Shown in pieces: positions 363 to 10,562 of a DNA stretch of 32,838 bases. This stretch comes from Cupriavidus gilardii J11 (GTDB lineage Bacteria; Pseudomonadota; Gammaproteobacteria; Burkholderiales; Burkholderiaceae). Made by a program: the position numbers and the translations under genes. Numbering within the stretch: position 1 is the first letter of the stretch; the number at the start of each line of letters is the position of its first letter. The notes below the pieces were generated by a model. The model was given only the letters and a program-made list of their open reading frames with translations. It searched no databases and was not told the DNA's origin. The stretch covers positions 87,829-120,666 of the forward strand of contig NZ_VLJN01000007.1 in the NCBI RefSeq assembly GCF_007829435.1, read 5' to 3'.

Positions 363-2117
363 TCACCAGTTTTGTCTGATGATCTCCTGAAATCCCCGTA
401 TGAAGAGATCCAGACGGGGCCGGTGTCCCTTGGCAAAGCCTACCGCCAAGAGCTCGTCGCCCCCTGGCCCAGCTAACTCCTCAAGGATGGGCACCGAGGC
501 AAACGCCTTCCATGATGACAGACCAGTGGGCGTCCAACTGTCATAGCTTGTCAGACCTTGCGCGAGCGCCGACTCTTCGCGAGTATCCGTGTGCGCCAAG
601 GACGCGAGGATCTCGAAGCGGGCAAAGCAAGGCGTGATATCGGGAAGGACGCCCATAAAGGCCGGCGCCCACGTCGTCAGCACCGAGAGAATGCGTTCGC
701 TCGACGCGGTTTTACGATTCTCCATGCCGGGCAGGTGCCTGAAATACTGCGCCCCGTCCCACGCGGAGGCGAACAGCTCGTCGACTGTTCGGCGCACCCC
801 GCGATGGTCACGCGTTAATGCAGCCGTCAGGAACCGCTGCAAGATGTTCCAGCGCCCCGCCCTGGCCAGCCCGAGGGCATACGCCGCGAACACAAGAACC
901 GCGGGATAAACCCGGATCTCGATGTACGGTGGATATCCGCTCTGCACCTCGCGGGCCTTTGCGAACAGCGCCCGAATCGTATCCAAGACCAACTCCAACG
1001 CTTCGTCGCCCCCCCAGCGACCGAGCACGCCCGCCACGGTCGCCACCGCTTCCGTTGCTACCTCGTTGGTTTCAACATATTGGCGAAAGACCTCCTTCTG
1101 ATCCGCACCTGCAGGTGGATTCGCGCGCTGCTCGTCGAGGGTCTCAACGACTTTGGTCAGCTGGTCGCGCACCAGATCGTCTAGCGCGATACGGAACTCC
1201 GTCTTGGCCACGTAGCGCCGCGCGCTTGCCACAGCCAGCGCGACATTGGCCGGATTCGGGAGCTGGCTCGCGACCAGCGTCTCCACCGATCGTTGCAGGC
1301 CTTCCAGGAGCGAATCCGCATCGTCGATCGGAATCACGATGCCCCGGCGATGTGCGAGCAATTCCTCGCCGCGCGGCCGCAGACGTCCGCTTTTTGCCGC
1401 CCAGAACAGCGGGTAGCGGCGGTTAGGCGACCGCAAGATGGCAGCACGCAGCGCGTGATCCCACTCACCCGACCAGCCGCACACGATTAATCCGTATTCA
1501 TCGAAGACGCGATCGAGCAGTCGGTCGTATTCGGGAGGGTAGCCCGCCAGTTCGGCGTCGGTATTGAGGATGCGGGCATCCTTGTAGTCGCCGTGCAGCT
1601 TGACGAGGTAGCAGCCGGCATGCGGCATCGGCACCGCGCCGGCCAACCCATCCACCGAAGCTACAACAACCGGCTCAACCCCTTCGTCCCGAAGCGCGTT
1701 TTCCATCAGCCGGTCGAAGTTCGTGGTCAGGATGATCTTGATGATGCCGGCGCGGACCAGGCGCGCGATGGCGCGATGTGCGCGCGTCGGCAGCTTCTTG
1801 CCGGCGTCCCGCTCCGCCGGAGTGGGCTCGATGTAGCTATCCAAGATGGCCCGCCGCTCGGCCGCAGTGTCGGCCAGCTGCTCCAGCAGTTGCGAGTAAT
1901 TCGGCTCGCCCCCGAATTTTGCCGCGTACCACGCGCCCCAGTCGGCCTGCTCCGGCTCGCCTTGCATGAGGGCGACGCGGCGCACCAGGTCTAGGGTGAT
2001 TTCCCAGCCGGTCGGGATGGCGGCAGCGCGGGAGATGCCTGATCCCAACAGCACTGCGTGAACACCGGGGTTCTCGTATAGGGAAAAGGCGAGCTTGGTG
2101 GCGGGGTCGATCTTCAT
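363..2117 (-). CDS. SIR2-domain protein (possible NAD-consuming defence effector)
   Basis: 584-aa protein whose N-terminal ~230 residues carry the sirtuin-fold NAD site as seen in stand-alone bacterial SIR2 proteins. The glycine-rich GSGIS is at 25-29, TTNFD at 131-135 (N133 and D135), LHGDY at 174-178 (catalytic-type H175) and GWSGEWD at 214-220. The C-terminal ~350 residues are mainly helical and I do not recognise them; they may act as a sensor or oligomerisation part. In known families (ThsA of Thoeris, DSR1/DSR2, SIR2-HerA, SIR2-pAgo) such domains destroy NAD during phage infection. That role is inferred here from the motifs and from the neighbouring ATPase. The gene is divergent from the KAP NTPase gene at 2337, and a 10-bp inverted repeat lies between them. 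No good Shine-Dalgarno sequence precedes the ATG at 2117, so translation may be leaderless or use another start. A bare SIR2-like NADase without a defence role cannot be excluded. Confidence 0.8.
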   Translation of the reverse strand: MKIDPATKLAFSLYENPGVHAVLLGSGISRAAAIPTGWEITLDLVRRVALMQGEPEQADWGAWYAAKFGGEPNYSQLLEQLADTAAERRAILDSYIEPTPAERDAGKKLPTRAHRAIARLVRAGIIKIILTTNFDRLMENALRDEGVEPVVVASVDGLAGAVPMPHAGCYLVKLHGDYKDARILNTDAELAGYPPEYDRLLDRVFDEYGLIVCGWSGEWDHALRAAILRSPNRRYPLFWAAKSGRLRPRGEELLAHRRGIVIPIDDADSLLEGLQRSVETLVASQLPNPANVALAVASARRYVAKTEFRIALDDLVRDQLTKVVETLDEQRANPPAGADQKEVFRQYVETNEVATEAVATVAGVLGRWGGDEALELVLDTIRALFAKAREVQSGYPPYIEIRVYPAVLVFAAYALGLARAGRWNILQRFLTAALTRDHRGVRRTVDELFASAWDGAQYFRHLPGMENRKTASSERILSVLTTWAPAFMGVLPDITPCFARFEILASLAHTDTREESALAQGLTSYDSWTPTGLSSWKAFASVPILEELAGPGGDELLAVGFAKGHRPRLDLFIRGFQEIIRQNW

Positions 2118-2197
2118 GGCGGTCGGCTCGTGATGGGCGGATCGGCCCGATTCTAAGGGAAAGGCCCTCGCTGCCGCGTATGCGTCGCTTTTTGGTG

Positions 2198-2223
2198 TTC
2201 TTGATAACTTTTCTTATCAAGAA
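2198..2223. promoter_or_regulatory. Perfect 10-bp inverted repeat in divergent promoter region
   Basis: The arms are ttcttgataa (2198-2207) and ttatcaagaa (2214-2223), separated by cttttc. The repeat lies in the 219-bp gap between the divergent SIR2 and KAP genes, in an AT-rich patch inside otherwise GC-rich sequence. Its position and symmetry suggest an operator for a dimeric regulator controlling both genes. A cruciform or recombination site is an alternative. No regulator gene sits next to it in this window. Confidence 0.5.
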
Positions 2224-2336
2224 CAATAGCAATAGTGTACGCGTAAGCGCTTCCCCGCTACACTCACGAGACGGTGTTGCCCCGTTACCGCGCCAGCATT
2301 GGGCTCGCGCGGCCGTACCCCCACCGTTGACCGCCC

Positions 2337-3749
2337 ATGACCGCCATTCCCGCCCGTCCTGTGACGCTGATTCCACCGCTCGTCGTTGCCACCCCCGAAC
2401 CCGACCACATCCAGGTGCCGTTTGAAGGTGATCGGCTCAACCGTAAGGCCGTCGCCGATCGGCTGACGGGCTACCTGGAGCGCCTCAAGGTGGGCGCGGT
2501 AATCGCACTGGACGCCCCATGGGGTGAGGGGAAGACCTGGTTCGGCCGCCACTGGACCGCTAGCTTGCGCGACCAGGGCTATGCGACCGGGTGGATCAAT
2601 GCCTTCGAGCAGGATTATGTGGAGGACGCGTTTCTACCGTTGGCCGCCGCGGTTCTCGAACTCTGTCAACGAGATCAGCCTGGCAGCGAGAAAGTGAAGG
2701 CCGGCGCCAGCGCCGTGATGCGGGCACTGCTCCCGGTCGGTACCAAGGCGCTTATCAACCTGGCCGGCCGCGCGGTCGGCGTCGCCGGCCTCGCCGACGA
2801 GTTTGGAGAGGCGGTCAAGGAGGCGACGGCCGAAGCCGCCAAGGACGGCGCCGCAAGCGTGGGCGACGCGGCCGCCGCTTGGGTGGAGCGGCGGCTGGAG
2901 GGCTGGGGCCAGGAGCGTGCCACCGTCTCGCATTTCCGTCAGACACTGGCCGAGTTCGCAGCCAAGCAATACGAGGCCTCAGGCAAGCCGGTTGTCATCG
3001 TGGTCGACGAGCTGGATCGCTGTCGCCCCGAGTTCGCGGTGCGGCTCGTCGAGCGGATCAAGCACTTTTTCGATGTGCCCCACTTGGTTTTCGTGCTGCT
3101 GATGAACCGCGATCAGTTGGAGAAGGCCATCCGGGGCGTCTATGGCAGCGAGACCGACGCTGCGACCTACCTGGGCAAGTTCCTTCACCTTTCCCTCAAA
3201 CTGCCAAAGGACCGGACGCGGGATCCCAAGGCCAACCCCCTCCGAGCGTTCATAACGCGACGTCTGCAGGAGCATGGCGCCGTAGACGAAACTTTTGTCA
3301 GGGGTTTCGCCGCATGCGCGGCGGTATTCGATCTGTCGCCTCGGGATATCGAACGGGGCTGTTCGCTGTTTCTTCTTTCGGGCTCGAATGAAGCTGCGCT
3401 TCTAAAAGCCTATCTAATTGCCCTGAAGCTCCGGGAACCGGGTATATACCGGGCTCTAGGGGATGTGGCGGGGCAAGAAGCCGCTCATAAGGAATGTTGC
3501 GAACGGCTGGGCATCGAAGTGCGCGAGGTGAAAAGCATTGGGGCCGGCTTATCGCCAGGTTTCCTTCCTTTTCCGGGAAACTACTTCAACGAACTGGTCA
3601 GAATTCACGACGAGCTCGGGGGTGCGAGGAGGTTCGACGAAAGTTGGTGGAACAAGGGCGGCAGCATGTTACCGGAGATCTTGGAGAACCTTCGGCCAGA
3701 CACGGCGATCAAGTACGTGATGGGCACGCTGGATCTCGACGTTGGGTAA
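2337..3749 (+). CDS. KAP-family P-loop NTPase
   Basis: 470-aa STAND-like ATPase of the KAP family. Walker A is APWGEGKTW at residues 60-68. Walker B is the KAP signature VVIVVDELDRCRPEF, with acidic D224, E225 and D227 and the typical DRC.P ending. The region following Walker B (RLVERIKHFFDVPHLVFVLLMNRDQLEKAI) also fits KAP. The membrane-spanning helices found inserted in many KAP proteins are weak here; there is only a mildly hydrophobic Ala-rich stretch around 130-180, so the protein is probably cytosolic or peripheral. KAP NTPases occur in phage-exclusion and defence settings (PifA-like proteins, QatA of QatABCD). Beside a SIR2 protein it could be the sensor or energy module of a two-gene system; that is inference. 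The ATG at 2337 has no clear Shine-Dalgarno sequence. The stop is 6 bp before the recombinase start, suggesting one transcript. Confidence 0.85.
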   Translation: MTAIPARPVTLIPPLVVATPEPDHIQVPFEGDRLNRKAVADRLTGYLERLKVGAVIALDAPWGEGKTWFGRHWTASLRDQGYATGWINAFEQDYVEDAFLPLAAAVLELCQRDQPGSEKVKAGASAVMRALLPVGTKALINLAGRAVGVAGLADEFGEAVKEATAEAAKDGAASVGDAAAAWVERRLEGWGQERATVSHFRQTLAEFAAKQYEASGKPVVIVVDELDRCRPEFAVRLVERIKHFFDVPHLVFVLLMNRDQLEKAIRGVYGSETDAATYLGKFLHLSLKLPKDRTRDPKANPLRAFITRRLQEHGAVDETFVRGFAACAAVFDLSPRDIERGCSLFLLSGSNEAALLKAYLIALKLREPGIYRALGDVAGQEAAHKECCERLGIEVREVKSIGAGLSPGFLPFPGNYFNELVRIHDELGGARRFDESWWNKGGSMLPEILENLRPDTAIKYVMGTLDLDVG

Positions 3750-3755
3750 GCGGCC

Positions 3756-5876
3756 ATGACGACGGGGCCCTCCTCTCTGGCTTTGGCAACGGCGCCCCCC
3801 CGCCGGCGCCGTTCCGTGACACGCCGACAGCTCCACCGCGGCCACTTTGGCTTCCTGCGCGCTATTGTTCAGGGGCTGCACGCCCGCCCAATGTGGGAAC
3901 GCTACCTCGCGGAGGAGGGCGATGTCGAGCCTCAGAATATTGCCATGCCATCGCCGGACGGAGATTCCGAGGCGCAGCACTTCGCCGCCCATCCCAAGGT
4001 ACGCCGTGTCACTGCCTGGCTGCGGAACGAACTGGCGGCCGCCGCCGCGCGGGAGCAGCGTCCAGGGATGGCCAGACTGGTCAAGGTCGACCTGCGCCAG
4101 ATAGGCCGCCCAGACCTTGGCTTACCTTCGTTGGAAGACTTCGTCGCGGCCGAAGGCCTGGACGGTTTCAGCGAGCGCGAGCAGCTGGCCGCCTACCAAG
4201 AGCGGTTCGGATCAGCCCTCCGGCGGGAAAACAAGCGGGTGGCGCTGATGCGGCGCCAGCTTGAGGCTATCGACTGGCTCGAAAGCCTGTATGCGCGCCC
4301 GGTGCTGGACGGCGATGGTTGCCGGGCCTGGCTGGCTGATACCTTAGCCGATCGCCTTGAAGCGGCCGGCGTGGCCACGATCGGCGCTCTCGTCGACCGC
4401 ATCAATAGCCTCGGCTCCGGCTGGAGCCGGGCGCTTCCGGGCATCGGCGCCGGCAAAGCTCGGGCCATCGAGCGGTTCCTGTCCGCGCACGCCGACACCA
4501 TGACGCGTCGCATTGGCAGTCACGTGGCAGTGCCCAGGCGCCAGCGGTATGCGCACGAGCTGGCGCGGGTGGTGCCGAGGACGACCGGGCTGGTACCACT
4601 GGACAAGCTGGTGGTGCCGGCCGAATTGGATGGGCGAGCCGGGGCCTATCGACGGCCTCAAGCCCAATGTCTGTTGTCCGCTACGAATGACTACGAGGCC
4701 GTGCTGGCTTGGCTACGCGCCAAGCCGGGCCTGCCTCCCGAGCAGGTCGCCCGCCTGCGTGAAAAGCGGCGCGACGTTGGTACCGTGCCCGGCCCGCTGG
4801 ATTGGCTGAACTTCCTCTCGCACACGCAACGCGCCTACCGAAAGGAAGCCGAGCGATTCCTGCTGTGGGCCATCCTGGTACGCGGCAAGCCGCTGTCATC
4901 GATGTCTCACGAGGACTGCGCCGCGTATCGGGATTTTCTAGCAAATCCGCCTGCGGATTGGTGCGCGCCCCGATCACGAGAGCGGTGGAGCCCTGTGTGG
5001 CGGCCCTTCGAGGGTCCGCTTTCCCACCGAGCCCAGTCCTATGCGCTCGGTGTGCTGAACAACCTGTACCGATTCCTGGTGGACCAGAACTACCTGATGG
5101 GCAACCCTTGGCACGGCGTCCACGCGCCGCGCAGCGCCACACCAAAGCTCGACGTAGGACGTAGCCTCACCGAGGATCAGTGGGCATTTGTTCAGGAGCA
5201 GCTGGCAGCCCTACCCGCTACTTCAGCAAACCTTCGCCTACGACTGGCGCTGCCGTTGTTGTATGAGACCGGTTTGCGGCGCTCGGAGATCATCGCGGCC
5301 ACAACCGATGATCTTGAATGGGTCAGCCTTCCTCGACCCGGCACAAAGGATCGGATAGAGGGCTGGTGGCTGCGTGTGGTTGGCAAAGGCTCCAAGCTCC
5401 GACGTATTCCGATATCACCTGGCGTCGCTGAAGCGCTGTGCGCGTACTTGCGAAGTCGAGGATTCGACGCTGACCTCACCCAAGGGCGACTACCTCGAGG
5501 CGTGGCGTTGCTGGGTCACGCCACGGACCTCGCGGATCGTGCACCCTGGCTTTCGCCAGCTACGGCCGATCCCGCCGCAGGCATTACGTCGGATGCGCTC
5601 TACAAGCAAATCAAGCGATTCTTCGCAGACTGCTCGGAACGGCTGCGCGGGTGTGACGAGCGTGGTGCTGAACGCCTTAAGGCGGCCAGTACCCACTGGT
5701 TGCGGCACACCCATGTGTCGCATTCTCTCGCGGCCGGCACACCCGTCGAAGTTGCACAGCAGAACGCTGGCCACACTTCGCTAAACACGACGACTCTGTA
5801 CGTCACCACGGAAGACGCGCGACGACTCGAGGCGATGATGGGATTCTGGGAGCGGAAGGCCCCCTCCCCTCCTTGA
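3756..5876 (+). CDS. Tyrosine recombinase with DUF3701-like N-terminal half
   Basis: 706-aa site-specific recombinase. The C-terminal phage-integrase catalytic domain holds TGLRRSEI with R508, VGKGSK with K544, HWLRHTH with H647 and R650, AGHTS with H673, and nucleophile Y682 in TTTLYVTTED. The full R-K-H-R-H-Y set is present, so it looks active. The first ~300 residues (beginning LHRGHFGFLRAIVQGL) resemble the N-terminal extension (DUF3701) of large integrases common in Burkholderiales and include a helix-hairpin-helix-like segment (IGALVDRINSLGSGWSRALPGIGAGKARAI). A SAM-like core-binding domain (LNFLSHTQRAYRKEAERFLLWAIL) precedes the catalytic domain. It begins 6 bp after the KAP stop and is likely cotranscribed. 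It could be the mobility enzyme that brought the SIR2/KAP pair, or a resolvase-like plasmid enzyme; no att site was identified. Confidence 0.9.
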   Translation: MTTGPSSLALATAPPRRRRSVTRRQLHRGHFGFLRAIVQGLHARPMWERYLAEEGDVEPQNIAMPSPDGDSEAQHFAAHPKVRRVTAWLRNELAAAAAREQRPGMARLVKVDLRQIGRPDLGLPSLEDFVAAEGLDGFSEREQLAAYQERFGSALRRENKRVALMRRQLEAIDWLESLYARPVLDGDGCRAWLADTLADRLEAAGVATIGALVDRINSLGSGWSRALPGIGAGKARAIERFLSAHADTMTRRIGSHVAVPRRQRYAHELARVVPRTTGLVPLDKLVVPAELDGRAGAYRRPQAQCLLSATNDYEAVLAWLRAKPGLPPEQVARLREKRRDVGTVPGPLDWLNFLSHTQRAYRKEAERFLLWAILVRGKPLSSMSHEDCAAYRDFLANPPADWCAPRSRERWSPVWRPFEGPLSHRAQSYALGVLNNLYRFLVDQNYLMGNPWHGVHAPRSATPKLDVGRSLTEDQWAFVQEQLAALPATSANLRLRLALPLLYETGLRRSEIIAATTDDLEWVSLPRPGTKDRIEGWWLRVVGKGSKLRRIPISPGVAEALCAYLRSRGFDADLTQGRLPRGVALLGHATDLADRAPWLSPATADPAAGITSDALYKQIKRFFADCSERLRGCDERGAERLKAASTHWLRHTHVSHSLAAGTPVEVAQQNAGHTSLNTTTLYVTTEDARRLEAMMGFWERKAPSPP

Positions 5877-5986
5877 GAGCATGGGTCGCATTGCCGCCCC
5901 CGCTACTTCGGCAGCGAACGAAGCCGAATTGTGTGCAGCGGCTCAATTTCAGTATATAACCCACCATTCGCACGGCCCGCTGTTCC

Positions 5987-6692
5987 ACTCACATGCCGCG
6001 AGCTTGATGCGTTAGCCGGCAGCGCTTCCTGGTACCGGTCCGCACGCCAAGCGCCATCAACCCACTGGGTATCTCGCGGCCGAGCTCATGAATCGCAATC
6101 CGACCCGGGTGCTGCTGTGGTTACTTAGGCGATCGATTTAATGGTATCGGGTAGCTAGTTGTTAGCTGATTAGGTGCCGATCTTGCTTGCGCATATTGTG
6201 CAAAGAGTATCTGGTAGCTATTTGGTAGCTGCCAAAAAACCTGCTCCGCCGATCGCGAACACTGGGCACCAAGTCAGCCGTTATCCGTTCGACTCACATC
6301 CAACGAGGTGGTTGCGTTAGCCGGTAGCTTCCTGGTACCGGTCCGCACGCCAGGCGCCATAACCAGATGGGCCCTGGCCACTATTTCCAGAGTACTTGCG
6401 AACAACCATTTGGCATCTCGTTGCCGAGCCCATAAATCGGGATCCGACCTGGGTGCTGCGGTGGCTGCTTGAAGCCGATAGATCGGATGGTATCGGGTAG
6501 CTACTTGGTAGCTGAATGCACAATTCGGTGCCGATCTCGCGTGTCTCAGCTACTAGATAGACATTCTTGCGCTTATTAGGCGGTAATCTCGCCAGCAACT
6601 TCCCGCCCCCGAAAAGTAGCTGGTAGCTACTTGCTAGCTGGCAAAAGTCGGTTCGCTGATCGCGAACCTAGGCGCCCAGCGAGCTGGTATCC
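5987..6692. repeat. Degenerate tandem duplication (about 305-bp and 400-bp units)
   Basis: Unit 1 begins at 5987 and unit 2 at 6292, both with actcacat. They share in order gcgttagccgg, a segment containing cctggtaccggtccgcacgc, a segment ending gcgccat, tggtatcgggtagct, ggtgccgatct, and gatcgcgaac. Unit 2 is longer because of extra segments around 6363-6405 and 6541-6610. Each unit carries two or more of the 18-bp partition motifs, so duplication has enlarged the centromere. A further gttagccggtagct at 6797 suggests a third, more decayed copy. Confidence 0.7.
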
Positions 6693-7229
6693 GATAGCTA
6701 TCTGGTAGATATGGCCACTGAACCAGCACTCTGTCCAGCCCAGGCGATTTTGGTAGCTAATTGGTACCTTTCACGGGATATGGGGCTGCGTTGCTCGTTA
6801 GCCGGTAGCTATCTAGTAGCTAGACCGTTGCACCGAGCATCACACCGGATTCACGCTTGATGGGTAGCTTTTTGGTATCTTTGACTCCCGCAATCGTGAT
6901 CCCCGCCGAGTAGCTGCAAGCTCCGCAGGTAGCTATCTGGTAGCTGACCATGATCTGGCTGAAGGGGCGCCGAGGTTCCTGCGTAACACGAACAGGGACA
7001 AGCGGCAAAACCTAGTATCTGCCGGATAGCCCCCAGCTACCAAAATGCTAACCTACGGATAGCCGACCGGTACCGCGTTACCGGGCGGCGAGTGCCTTTG
7101 AACTCTCACCTAAACCTCATTTCCGAAGGAATCTTTGGTACCAAACGGATACCAAGCTTAGCCGGTAGCTAGCTGCTACCCATGCACCCTTGGAGCGGCT
7201 ATACTACTACCAAGTAGCTACTTGGTAGC
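6150..7229. repeat. Centromere-like array of 18-bp repeats (parS candidate)
   Basis: Copies of ggtagctaNNtggtagct, exact or with 1-4 mismatches, lie at 6150-6167, 6213-6230, 6496-6513, 6622-6639, 6693-6710, 6752-6769, 6804-6821, 6863-6880 and 6928-6945. More degenerate copies lie at 6323-6339, 7164-7180 and 7213-7229. Each copy is two direct ggtagct half-sites 11 bp apart, about one helical turn, which suits ribbon-helix-helix dimers binding side by side. All copies lie in the same orientation upstream of parA, where type Ib partition systems keep their centromere. No gene of convincing quality overlaps the 5877-7241 interval. Confidence 0.8.
7207..7228. promoter_or_regulatory. 22-bp perfect palindrome, likely parAB operator
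   Basis: The sequence is ctaccaagtag followed by its exact reverse complement, and it contains the half-site used in the upstream array in inverted arrangement. It ends 13 bp before the parA ATG, next to the ribosome binding site (aaaggag, 7231-7237). The natural reading is an autoregulation site for the small centromere-binding protein. As RNA it would form a hairpin just upstream of the ribosome binding site. Confidence 0.65.
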
Positions 7230-7241
7230 CAAAGGAGAATC

Positions 7242-7949
7242 ATGCCGACAATTGCATTCGTGAGTCCGAAAGGCGGAGCTGGAAAGACGACTTCCTCGTT
7301 GGTACTGGCGACTCAGATTGCCGAACGGGGCAAAGAAGTCACTGTTATTGACGCCGACCCGAACCATCCTGTGAAAAACTGGGCCTCCAATGGCGCTGCG
7401 CCAGCGTCCATGACGGTTGTCTCCGACGTGACGGAAGAGGACATCGCAGACCGCATCGATGAAGCGGCTAGGAAATCCGCCTTCGTGATTGTCGACCTGG
7501 AAGGTACAGCGGCGACCATCGTTGCACATGCCATCAGCGAAGCTGACCTGGTTATTGTCCCGACCCAGGGGTCGCAATTGGACGCCGAGCAAGCGGGAAG
7601 GGCGTTTCGACTGATCCGGGCTCATGAGCGCGGCATTCAAAAGCACAAGCCCGACTACAAGCTTCCGTACGCGGTGCTGTTCACTCGGACCTCTGTGGCG
7701 ATCCAAAGCAGGGATACCGCTCATATCCGGAGAAGTTTCGCAGAAGCCGGGATACCGGTGTTTCAGACAGAACTGAACGAGAGAGCTGCCTTCAAGGCAA
7801 TGTTCTCCTACCGCGAGACCCTCTCCAAGCTGAACCGGTCCGAAGTGTCAAACGTAGACAAAGCAATAGAGAACGCGGAGGCCTTTGCTGCGGAAGTCCT
7901 GCTGTTCCTCCGACAAGGACAACCTGTGGCCACGGAGAATGGACAATGA
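7242..7949 (+). CDS. parA: ParA-type partition ATPase
   Basis: 235-aa short (type Ib) ParA that drives plasmid segregation on the nucleoid using ATP. The deviant Walker A motif KGGAGKTT is at 10-17 with the signature lysine K10. The Walker A' motif VIDADPN is at about 36-42, and Walker B-type FVIVDLEG at about 85-92. It has no N-terminal HTH, as expected for type Ib ParAs whose autoregulation is done by the partner protein. The start is fixed by aaaggag 5 bp upstream and by the palindrome at 7207-7228. Its stop overlaps the next start (ATGA), giving a translationally coupled parA-parB pair with the repeat array upstream. Confidence 0.93.
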   Translation: MPTIAFVSPKGGAGKTTSSLVLATQIAERGKEVTVIDADPNHPVKNWASNGAAPASMTVVSDVTEEDIADRIDEAARKSAFVIVDLEGTAATIVAHAISEADLVIVPTQGSQLDAEQAGRAFRLIRAHERGIQKHKPDYKLPYAVLFTRTSVAIQSRDTAHIRRSFAEAGIPVFQTELNERAAFKAMFSYRETLSKLNRSEVSNVDKAIENAEAFAAEVLLFLRQGQPVATENGQ

Positions 7950-8272
7950 CACGCGCTAACCCGTTGGACGCGGCCCTCGACGAATTCGAGGTGAAGCCAA
8001 GGGCAGACCGACCGAGGGTCGCTCCCGAAGCGATCGAACAGATCGCCAAAGAAAACGGCTTCGTGAGCCGGGATGCAGCGAAGCTTGAGGCGCCGGCACG
8101 AATGCAGAAGCAGCGCCGGTTCAAGACAGGAAGGAATCAACAGATCAACATCAAAGCGACTGGTGCGACTATCGAGCGCTTTACCGCGCTGGCTGATCGC
8201 CTTCAGCTGCCCTCGGGTGCCCTTCTAGAGCGAGCAGTAGAGCTGTTGGAGGAGCACTACCGTAACCGGTAG
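7946..8272 (+). CDS. Small ribbon-helix-helix centromere-binding protein (ParB-like)
   Basis: 108-aa basic protein overlapping parA by 4 bp. The N-terminal half (~1-55) is polar and charged and probably flexible, as in small ParB partners where it contacts ParA. The C-terminal part from about residue 62 has a beta-strand (QQINIKAT) followed by two helices (IERFTALADRLQL and GALLERAVELLEEHY), the layout of an RHH DNA-binding domain. The likely targets are the ggtagct array and the 22-bp palindrome upstream of parA. The operon ends at a strong terminator at 8297-8324. I am confident of the fold class and the partition context, not of any particular family name. Confidence 0.82.
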   Translation: MTRANPLDAALDEFEVKPRADRPRVAPEAIEQIAKENGFVSRDAAKLEAPARMQKQRRFKTGRNQQINIKATGATIERFTALADRLQLPSGALLERAVELLEEHYRNR

Positions 8273-8353: not shown

Positions 8354-9216
8354 GGTGAACGGCAATAGGGCCCCCGGCGAGCTGCGGGCACTGTCTGTTG
8401 AAGACGGATAGGTCTGAGAACACACGTTCGTTGTTTAGTGCTTCAGTAAACACTGTAAACCCTTTGGTAAACCTTTATGGTCGCCGAGCCTAGGCCCAGC
8501 AAGGCTTTGCGGGCGATATGGTGAACTCGCTTGGGATGATGGTGAACGCTTGTGGGGCGCAAGGCATGTGGATTTGGGGATACGGTGAACGTTCGTGGGG
8601 CGCCCAGGATGTGGATTTGGGGAATTGGTGAAAGAGCTTGGGGGCCTCCGGTCGGAGCCTAACGGTGAAACTTTTTGGGGTCGGTCCAACCCTCGCCGGA
8701 GCACCCAAGAGCCGTCGCCAACACATCGCTCCGTGGTGAATGGCATTGGTGAACAGGATTGGGGTCCGGTAAAGGTGAATAGCGTTGGGGGCGGTTAGGA
8801 GATTGGATACCAAGAAACCCAAGTGCGACGCCAAAGGTGAAAGGAATTAGGGTGGCGGAACGGTGAACGGATTTGGGGCGGCGGCCATTGGGAAAGTCCG
8901 TCAAGCTAGACATCCTCGTTACGTCGCCCCGGAGAGGTGAAAGCTTTTGGGGATTATCGGCGTTCATCAACCCGAAATATGACTAATAGGGCACTTTAGC
9001 CGCTTGGCTTTCTCCGGCGCGGCGCTTACCGCGAGAAAGAGACCCAAATCTATGCACCTTTCAACGTGAGACGCGCCCACAAGGTGAACAACCTTGGGGT
9101 CCCGGGCGGTCACCCACGCCGCAATACACAGAGCGCCAGCTGTTGTAAGCCCTGAATCTCAAGGACAAGCTGCTGAGGTGGCCGCTATTTAGCTTGATAG
9201 GTGAACGGTGTCGGTC
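8354..9216. repeat. Iteron array, replication origin (oriV)
   Basis: 17-bp repeats with consensus ggtgaaNNNNNttgggg start at 8354, 8520, 8541, 8584, 8627, 8664, 8748, 8774, 8836, 8862, 8936, 9083 and 9200, all on the plus strand. There is a shortened copy at 8735 and degenerate ones at 8563 and 8606 (ending tggatttgggg). Between 8520 and 8643 the spacing is 21-22 bp, two helical turns, including a 43-bp unit present twice (8541-8583, 8584-8626). The array lies directly upstream of a Rep_3-type initiator gene, as in iteron plasmids. No convincing DnaA box was found by eye. An AT-richer patch near 8970-9000 is a possible melting region. Confidence 0.9.
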
Positions 9217-9251: not shown

Positions 9252-10562
9252 ATGTCGCGCGGAAGTCCAGCTCCGAAAAGCACTCAGATTGCGCTTTTTC
9301 AGCCTGAGGTGCCAGAGCCGTTCAAGAAGGCCGTCCAAGCGATCCATGTCGCGCCGGTCGGTGGCGCTCTAACGCTGCAGCAACGCCGGCTGTTCAATTC
9401 GTTGATCAAGAACGCCATCGAGCACCGCCTGGCCAAAAACGATGCCGCGAACACGTTCCAGATCTCGATTCCCGAGATGATGGCGGAGCTCAGTCTCACG
9501 ACGAAGGACACTGCATACATCAAAGAGACTGCGAAGTCGCTGATGAGAACAGTGGTGGACTGGGATCAATTGAACAGCGACGGCACAGCGACTTGGACGG
9601 GCTCAACCCTGCTGGCGGGTGCAAAGATCACTGGCCCGCTCTTGTCCTACTCATTCGCGCCGCAGATCTGCGAGGAATTGCTGAACCCTGAACGGTACGC
9701 GATGATCGATATGCGGATCGCAAAGCTGTTCCGGCGCGCACATGCGCTGGCGCTGTGGGAGAACACTGTTCGCTACGAGAAGATTGGAATCACTGCTCGG
9801 ATACCGCTGCATGTATTCCGGAACCTAATCCTGGGTCGCGAAGAAGGGGAGACGAAGTACAAGGAGTACAAGATCTTCAAGCGTGCGGTAATCAATCCCT
9901 GCATTGCAGAGATCAATGCTGTGTCGGATCACACCCTGGAGCTGATCGAACACAAGGTGGGGCGATCAGTGACGGACGTTCAGTTCAAGATCAGTAGAAA
10001 GAAGGTGAGCCCGGACGCAGAGGATGAAGACATGGAGCTTGTCCAAAGCGTCGTCAAGTTTGGTGTACCGCTCTCCGAAGCACGAAAATTCATCCGCTCG
10101 TTCGGCGCCCCCCGGGTTCGATCGGCCGTGGCGTACACGAAGGCCAGAATCCAGAAAAAGAACGCGCCCGCGGTTGACAACGTGGCCGCCTACTTCCGTA
10201 AGGCCGTTACCGAGAATTGGGCCAAGAACAGCGAGCCGGCTCCTCAAAGCGAACGGCCTTTCAGCACCGGCGCGGCGCGACACGGCGCAACGGCCAAGAC
10301 CGCTGCAGAGGCGCGGGACCAGTTCATCGCCGCACGGATCCCCCAGGCCCAAGCCTACTTCGCTGAGCTCGACGCAGATGATCAATCCGAATTGATTGGG
10401 AAGTACAACGATCAATGTGAGGTGGCAAATCTTCGCGTGATCGCCGGCAAGAAGCCAACGAAGGCAGCCCAGTCCAGCTTCTATCGTTGGCTTGCAGACT
10501 TTACCTGGGGTGAACCCACGTCGGATGACTTGCTAACGTTTGTCCTCGCCGGGAAGGTTTGA
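9252..10562 (+). CDS. repA: Plasmid replication initiator, Rep_3 type
   Basis: 436-aa initiator that would bind the upstream iterons and open oriV. The first winged-helix domain spans about 30-150, including LTLQQRRLFNSLIKNA and the region up to SYSFAPQICEEL. The second follows (MRIAKLFRRAHALALWENTVRYEKIG ... FRNLILGREEGETKYKEYKIFKRAVINPCIAEIN), a typical Rep_3 pattern. It is longer than the usual 230-330 aa. The C-terminal ~170 residues contain a helical region (SEARKFIRSFGAPRVRSAVAYTKARI ... NVAAYFRKAVTENWAKN) found in larger Rep proteins of pseudomonad and burkholderial plasmids. The ATG at 9252 follows a weak gagg at 9241. The inverted half-iterons at 9203-9232 suggest autorepression. Confidence 0.93.
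   Translation: MSRGSPAPKSTQIALFQPEVPEPFKKAVQAIHVAPVGGALTLQQRRLFNSLIKNAIEHRLAKNDAANTFQISIPEMMAELSLTTKDTAYIKETAKSLMRTVVDWDQLNSDGTATWTGSTLLAGAKITGPLLSYSFAPQICEELLNPERYAMIDMRIAKLFRRAHALALWENTVRYEKIGITARIPLHVFRNLILGREEGETKYKEYKIFKRAVINPCIAEINAVSDHTLELIEHKVGRSVTDVQFKISRKKVSPDAEDEDMELVQSVVKFGVPLSEARKFIRSFGAPRVRSAVAYTKARIQKKNAPAVDNVAAYFRKAVTENWAKNSEPAPQSERPFSTGAARHGATAKTAAEARDQFIAARIPQAQAYFAELDADDQSELIGKYNDQCEVANLRVIAGKKPTKAAQSSFYRWLADFTWGEPTSDDLLTFVLAGKV

Follow-up and report, generated by a model that had tools for sequence, protein, structure and literature searches.

The question raised by this locus is what function is served by an array of short repeats placed directly in front of a plasmid-type parA gene. 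The window, by which we denote the whole stretch of DNA analysed, comprises positions 87829-120666 of contig C7 of genome G000, that is, the final 32.8 kb of a contig of 120,666 bases. It encodes plasmid-type functions, namely a Rep3-type initiator, a type IV secretion coupling-protein domain, and parA together with a small overlapping gene, which suggests that the contig is a plasmid. Judged from its sequence, the array very probably belongs to a plasmid partition system of type Ib (ParF/ParG-like), in which it serves as centromere and, at the end next to parA, also as operator. Coordinates are summarised in Table 1. Two further features of the window are recorded here: a 43-bp tandem repeat of about two copies (positions 8533-8643) between the gene for the ribbon-helix-helix (RHH) protein and rep, which is a candidate iteron region, and a SIR2-like gene beside a divergent gene for a KAP-type P-loop NTPase (positions 363-3749), perhaps a defence pair.

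Table 1. Features of the partition locus and its surroundings (window positions; mismatches are counted against GGTAGCTANNTGGTAGCT).
Feature	Position	Strand	Remarks
Tyrosine recombinase gene	3756-5876		Adjoins the array
First duplication copy, 305 bp	5982-6286	+	Aligned to the adjacent block
Second duplication copy, 407 bp with insertions	6287-6693	+	Directly adjacent; 83% identity over 300 aligned bases
Array of TAGCTA-type half-sites, mostly in 11-bp pairs	6150-7230	+	Predicted centromere/operator; 18-mer scan, GGTAGCT count, matrix
18-bp paired site	6150-6167	+	1 mismatch
18-bp paired site	6213-6230	+	0 mismatches
18-bp paired site	6323-6340	+	3 mismatches
18-bp paired site	6496-6513	+	0 mismatches
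18-bp paired site	6622-6639	+	1 mismatch
18-bp paired site	6693-6710	+	2 mismatches
18-bp paired site	6752-6769	+	1 mismatch
18-bp paired site	6804-6821	+	1 mismatch
18-bp paired site	6863-6880	+	2 mismatches
18-bp paired site	6928-6945	+	0 mismatches
18-bp paired site, inverted	7035-7052	-	3 mismatches
18-bp paired site	7164-7181	+	3 mismatches
Candidate -10 box TATACT	7200-7205	+	42 bp before the parA ATG; array sites around it
Perfect 22-bp palindrome	7207-7228		Shares bases with the last two sites; between candidate -10 box and parA start; putative autoregulatory operator
parA, 235 aa, Walker-type ATPase	7242-7949	+	Nearest PDB relative TP228 ParF; ATPase domain from residue 1
RHH gene (parG-like), 108 aa	7946-8272	+	Predicted centromere-binding protein; 4-bp overlap with parA
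Predicted DNA-recognition strand, codons 65-71, QQINIKA	8138-8158	+	Within the RHH gene
rep gene (Rep3-type)	9252-10562		Rival iteron-binding Rep; about 2 kb from the array

The repeat array and its helical phase

The repeat motifs reported in an earlier note on this DNA are real. The 18-mer GGTAGCTANNTGGTAGCT, allowing up to three mismatches, matches the window 14 times (12 on the forward and 2 on the reverse strand), compared to a chance level of 0.11 on average and at most 2 in 100 dinucleotide shuffles, and its two half-sites lie 11 bp apart from start to start. Ten of the matches, all on the forward strand, fall within positions 5987-6945, the range to which the earlier note had confined the array. 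The remaining four lie at 7035-7230, and the array therefore extends to 11 bp before the start of parA. The spacing of 52-71 bp given in the earlier note is seen in 6 of the 9 intervals that separate the ten 18-mers; the remaining three measure 110, 173 and 126 bp. The shorter word GGTAGCT occurs 17 times in the window (1.9 expected), with 14 of these occurrences in 6150-7170. A half-site matrix derived from 25 loci without the window, applied with a threshold of 7 bits, yields 16 matches in 5880-7241 against 0.3 by shuffling, one of which (at 5951) looks stray while another overlaps its neighbour, and 8 matches in the other 31.4 kb. No promoter passes a sigma-70 consensus scan of positions 6900-7300.

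In a set of 25 further loci of this type, the 194 exact TAGCTA sites share the consensus context TAGCTAYCNGR, an 11-bp unit that is repeated on both sides. The 18-mer thus corresponds to about one and a half units and contains two palindromic half-sites separated by one helical turn. Among pairs of exact TAGCTA sites (20 loci), a distance of 11 bp is the commonest (22 pairs), with lesser peaks at 22 bp (8), 7 bp (6), 28-30 bp (16 together) and 33 bp (5). In arrays built from a different word, GAATTC (14 loci), the sites are 11 or 12 bp apart (39 pairs), followed by 23/24 and 35/36 bp, and there are no pairs at 13-21 and 26-32 bp. The lesser peaks at 7, 22 and 28-30 bp indicate that the phase is less strict in TAGCTA arrays than in GAATTC arrays.

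Tandem duplication within the array

Part of the array is a duplicated block, as the earlier note had recognised from the letters. Aligned end to end, the adjacent blocks of 305 and 407 bp are identical at 250 of 300 aligned bases (score 245, compared to a maximum of 45 in 300 shuffles). With the motifs masked the score is still 138 (maximum of 44 in 200 shuffles). The spacers have therefore been duplicated as well, and the block reflects a segmental tandem duplication with later insertions or deletions rather than convergence of motifs.

Array lengths differ widely between plasmids. With sites counted above 9 bits and within a single run, there are 13 over 1,087 bp in the window, 52 over 3,384 bp in pRK1-2 of C. 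basilensis, 28 over 2,244 bp in C. malaysiensis and 24 over 1,186 bp in C. metallidurans p2. Four plasmids of 28-44 kb have 5-10 such sites over 82-194 bp, and in two Sphingobium plasmids the run holds a single site. In pRK1-2, a 316-bp segment is present about five times within the array (tandem-repeat score 2339); the array of C. malaysiensis contains repeat units of 151 and 171 bp, and that of C. metallidurans p2 1.8 copies of a 117-bp unit. Internal duplication of the array is thus also found in three other Cupriavidus plasmids. We also note about four head-to-tail copies of the 11-bp unit, with 97% match, within the pRK1-2 array (L010:1924-1968).

We also considered that array length is set by plasmid size. 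Both quantities correlate among 18 complete plasmids (Spearman rho 0.84, p 1e-5), with rho 0.18 in the 7 TAGCTA plasmids outside Cupriavidus. The trend is absent in six further plasmids fetched later as a test (rho -0.55, p 0.26). With these included, all 13 GAATTC plasmids give rho 0.37 (p 0.21), and the value for 24 plasmids together (rho 0.72, p 6e-5) is driven mainly by four large Cupriavidus plasmids. The relationship was therefore dropped.

ParA and the small putative RHH protein

The best PDB match of ParA is ParF of TP228 (residues 1-184, E 1.6e-18). The protein is a short ATPase whose domain starts at residue 1-4, and it has no N-terminal helix-turn-helix (HTH). By these features, together with a small, likely RHH protein in the same operon and repeats immediately upstream of parA, the locus reads as a type Ib system.

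The C-terminal domain of the 108-aa protein is likely an RHH domain. Pfam RHH_1 is matched by 10 of 21 members of the protein family at E values up to 1 (best 1.4e-4); the window's protein reaches 17.8 bits, below the cut-off of 20.5 bits. Its AlphaFold model has a pLDDT of 74 overall and of about 90 over residues 71-108, and comparison of model residues 62-108 with PDB structures places mostly RHH proteins (CopG, Arc, PutA, AmrZ) in the top ranks. VIA-align gives Z scores of 6-7 for RHH structures, where values below 8 may mean a common arrangement only. A Foldseek search with the model returns no match at E 0.001, with ParG (1p94) at rank 22 (E 2.1), and a sequence search of the PDB gives no significant match to solved RHH proteins, ParG included. 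In type Ib systems a flexible N-terminal tail with an arginine finger acts on ParA; the N-terminal half of the window's protein is modelled with lower confidence and contains conserved arginines. Residues Q66, N68 and K70 of the predicted recognition strand are invariant in both alignments made (A1 and A3), a pattern that resembles the Q-N-R contacts of the Arc repressor.

Co-occurrence of array word and RHH subfamily

Relatives of the RHH protein were collected from 62 plasmid records and from 24 loci in GTDB contigs. The gene is found in 18 of 398 genomes surveyed in the family and in 6 of 398 surveyed across the phylum, the window's own genome being included in both. Before counting, L029 and L045 (no parA found), L035 (43 bp of upstream sequence) and loci with identical RHH sequence were left out. 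Filtering of the fetched loci retained 50, including the spurious L081r, which lacks the RHH gene, is counted as 'other' and was omitted from trees. L074r and L076r, whose RHH gene is broken, were also omitted from trees; the former is among the 26 loci with an alanine after the invariant lysine of the strand (K-A), as is L072, whose strand reads K-T.

In the window and its relatives the array is located directly upstream of parA and the RHH gene. The neighbouring replication genes vary: TrfA, RepB types, RepA types and IncFII RepA are represented, and for some stretches the PLSDB gene tables, which are incomplete, list none. The word of the array follows the RHH subfamily. All 26 K-A loci have 2-13 TAGCTA-type sites per 400 bp and at most one GAATTC-type site, whereas all 14 loci with the strand QINIKG (K-G) have 4-16 GAATTC-type and at most two TAGCTA-type sites. 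The word matrices were trained on these same K-A and K-G loci; untrained hexamer counts agree with them, apart from the weak cases L051, L053 and L072, each with 2 recognisable sites in 400 bp. In L009, GATATC is as frequent as TAGCTA. Other strands go along with other words: GATATC in L056, an AAGCTT-like word in L071, a CAGCTTTC-like word in L054, mixed GGTACC/GATACC-like words in five Paraburkholderia-type loci, and TAGCTA together with GATATC in L075r, which has an unusual strand.

A code in which the residue after the invariant lysine (A or G) suffices to determine the word is rejected, because the five Paraburkholderia-type VQIPxKG proteins have no GAATTC array; one of these loci, L048, has two TAGCTA. 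The tree of ParA unites the 14 GAATTC loci in one clade, with L071 as the sole further member. A single clade of all 14 is not rejected by the AU test (p 0.107 for the RHH protein without its strand, 0.219 for ParA), so the contrast between A and G may be one event. Massilia L014 may represent a second word switch, of which we are unsure. The association of word and strand rests on few evolutionary events. It supports a pairing of RHH protein and array within subfamilies, short of proving a residue code.

A blastn search of 72,556 plasmids with the array alone gives no match (records closest to the window's genome may be missing), as is expected of binding sites whose words are conserved in otherwise free spacer. 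Two side observations concern the relatives. On contig C7 of the congeneric genome G291 (L074, L076) the RHH gene is matched in two separate pieces and the TAGCTA sites are still there. In 17 of the 26 TAGCTA-type loci, for example L009, there are, by raw count, 1-3 further sites above 9 bits within 600 bp past the RHH gene; the window has none in the corresponding 600 bp.

Alternative functions of the array

Direct-repeat arrays near Rep3-type genes are typical of iteron origins, and the window's rep gene is just 2 kb off, such that the repeats might be iterons bound by Rep. We consider this highly improbable. Among relatives the array keeps with parA and the RHH gene while name, orientation and distance of rep change, about half of the annotated relative stretches list no rep at all (the gene tables being incomplete), and the array word follows the RHH subfamily. 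In the window itself, the separate 43-bp tandem repeat before rep is the better iteron candidate. The array could also be an extended parA operator only, with the true centromere elsewhere, to which we concede a small chance. Array sites surround the candidate -10 box, paired sites also occur at some imuA promoters, and RHH partition proteins of type Ib also act as repressors, with omega of pSM19035 acting at several promoters (PMC5016525). However, the outermost site is 1.1 kb away from parA in the window, and in pRK1-2 as much as 3.4 kb, far past any promoter, and 10 of the 12 places in the whole genome that match the 18-mer with at most two mismatches are in the array (reversed control, 2).

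The gene adjoining the array on the other side encodes a tyrosine recombinase, and C. metallidurans p2 likewise has a long integrase ahead of its array. The repeats might accordingly be accessory sites for multimer resolution or integration, yet a tyrosine recombinase is listed upstream of parA in only 4 of 24 annotated loci (L009, L011, L052, L057) and the word tracks the RHH subfamily rather than the recombinase, which leaves this reading with next to no probability. The proposal of the earlier note, a centromere array grown by tandem duplication, is supported by the position upstream of parA and the RHH gene, by the concordance of word and RHH subfamily and by the recurrence of duplication.

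As a centromere and operator, the array most probably works as follows. Each dimer of the 108-aa protein would occupy the major groove of one palindromic hexamer (TAGCTA or a near variant). Neighbouring dimers, one helical turn (11 bp) apart, would lie on the same face of the DNA, which would favour cooperative pairs. About a dozen pairs over 1.1 kb would then recruit the ParA ATPase via the tail of the RHH protein, such that plasmid copies are positioned and segregated. Occupation of the last sites and of the proximal palindrome around the candidate TATACT box would repress parA and the RHH gene, resulting in autoregulation. The array itself would have grown in part by tandem duplication of the block of about 305 bp.

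Paired sites outside the array

The two places in genome G000 that match the 18-mer outside the array, C7:77047 and C7:85683, equal the reversed control in number. The former (L021:9048-9069) precedes an imuA-imuB-dnaE2 operon by about 100 bp and is some 50 bp away from a LexA-like box. ImuB and DnaE2 are identified by Pfam; the first gene product has no Pfam match, and we take it to be ImuA by its position and by known features of ImuA. The latter (L021:17684-17701) immediately precedes an open frame that has an AbiTii domain.

A composite pattern, consisting of a paired site and a LexA-like box separated by 33-60 bp in either order, was searched in 60 Cupriavidus genomes, one of which (G791) is by its number outside the RHH gene survey. 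It occurs in 4 of the 60 genomes, all among the 10 carriers of the RHH gene (hypergeometric 4.3e-4). We note that the pattern was drawn up after G000, C. pauculus (W01) and G786 had been seen. The test is not clean, because three of the four places (G000; G131, which has the letters of W01; G202, which has the coordinates of G786) had contributed to the pattern, and the one new element is the LexA-like box of G196. The reversed pattern gives 2 matches, in two genomes without the RHH gene. All four places (including L082, L083 and L084) are at an imuA-like start. The gene is intact in G000 and C. pauculus has an imuA, whereas G786/G202 retain a broken fragment; in G196 the start is cut short, and the sequence after the cut resembles a Tn3-type transposase.

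Of 20 imuA-like places found, 19 were aligned. Two of them, C. pauculus and the broken fragment, show a strong site upstream; at another two, the start of the gene itself contains one weaker half-site. The strong site is absent at 17 of 19, so that a site at imuA is an option and not a rule. In whole genomes the reversed control of a 15-mer exceeds the real word (G785: 58+65 versus 23+25, among the matches listed), whereas on six plasmid records the real word leads clearly (W02: 39+36 versus 4+6, among the matches listed). Taken one by one, the outlying sites are weak evidence.

Relation to known partition systems

The parS iterons of pSM19035 are heptads. The window's system and the delta-omega-parS system of that plasmid have in common an RHH protein on repeated short words that overlap several promoters (PMC5016525, in its part on this system), which is a prediction in the case of the window and concerns parA and perhaps imuA. 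In pSM19035 there are three parS sites of 9, 7 and 10 iterons and the genes are separately transcribed; the same part of PMC5016525 mentions no 11-bp pairs. ParF-ParG-parH of TP228 likewise combines an ATPase of the same family with an RHH protein in the operon, and has repeats upstream of parA and more next to the promoter (the TP228 side after the relevant part of PMC5016525). Its parH consists of continuous direct and inverted repeats with AT-rich spacers, according to that part of PMC5016525, whereas the palindromic hexamers of the window form 11-bp pairs that are dispersed over 1.1 kb. Unlike in TP228, the RHH protein here is not matched to ParG by sequence search.

The par module of Psychrobacter plasmid pP62BP1 also encodes a ParA without HTH and a small protein with a ParG domain, with short repeats right before parA as its predicted parS (PMC3346939). 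It has seventeen identical adjacent 8-bp repeats and a ParB of 67 aa, and the passages on it describe neither phased pairs nor a scattered array. Similarly, the parA-parB modules of Antarctic Pseudomonas plasmids have direct repeats of 4-6 bp in their predicted parS regions, noted in PMC6896180 without detail in the main text; some of these modules may belong to the same family as that of the window. The literature searched, which left most subscription papers outside, holds no account of this array family, and the passages of PMC2864759 consulted have nothing on a par site of pMOL28. The earlier note set the array against compact parS sites of well-studied type Ib systems; multi-repeat centromeres have been described before for this type (PMC5016525). 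By their descriptions, the array differs from described centromeres in its palindromic hexamers phased at 11 bp, its long scattered layout and the changes of word across the family.

Implications for the plasmid family

Within one protein family, arrays range from less than 100 bp to 3.4 kb, and internal duplication is one route of growth. A wider and speculative proposal, to which we give distinctly less than even credence, is that of a broad proteobacterial family of type Ib centromeres with a shared architecture, palindromic hexamers phased at one helical turn, whose word (TAGCTA, GAATTC, GATATC, AAGCTT-like, GGTACC-like) would switch with the strand of the RHH protein and give rise to new compatibility groups. 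As part of the same proposal, the RHH protein would have been recruited as a second regulator of the plasmid SOS mutasome operon (imuA), coupling occupancy of the centromere to mutagenic repair. The sites at imuA suggest, without showing it, that plasmid SOS mutagenesis may involve a segregation protein as well. The relatives constitute a natural experiment in which the word of a centromere changes and its geometry is kept, which bears on the origin of partition-based incompatibility groups.
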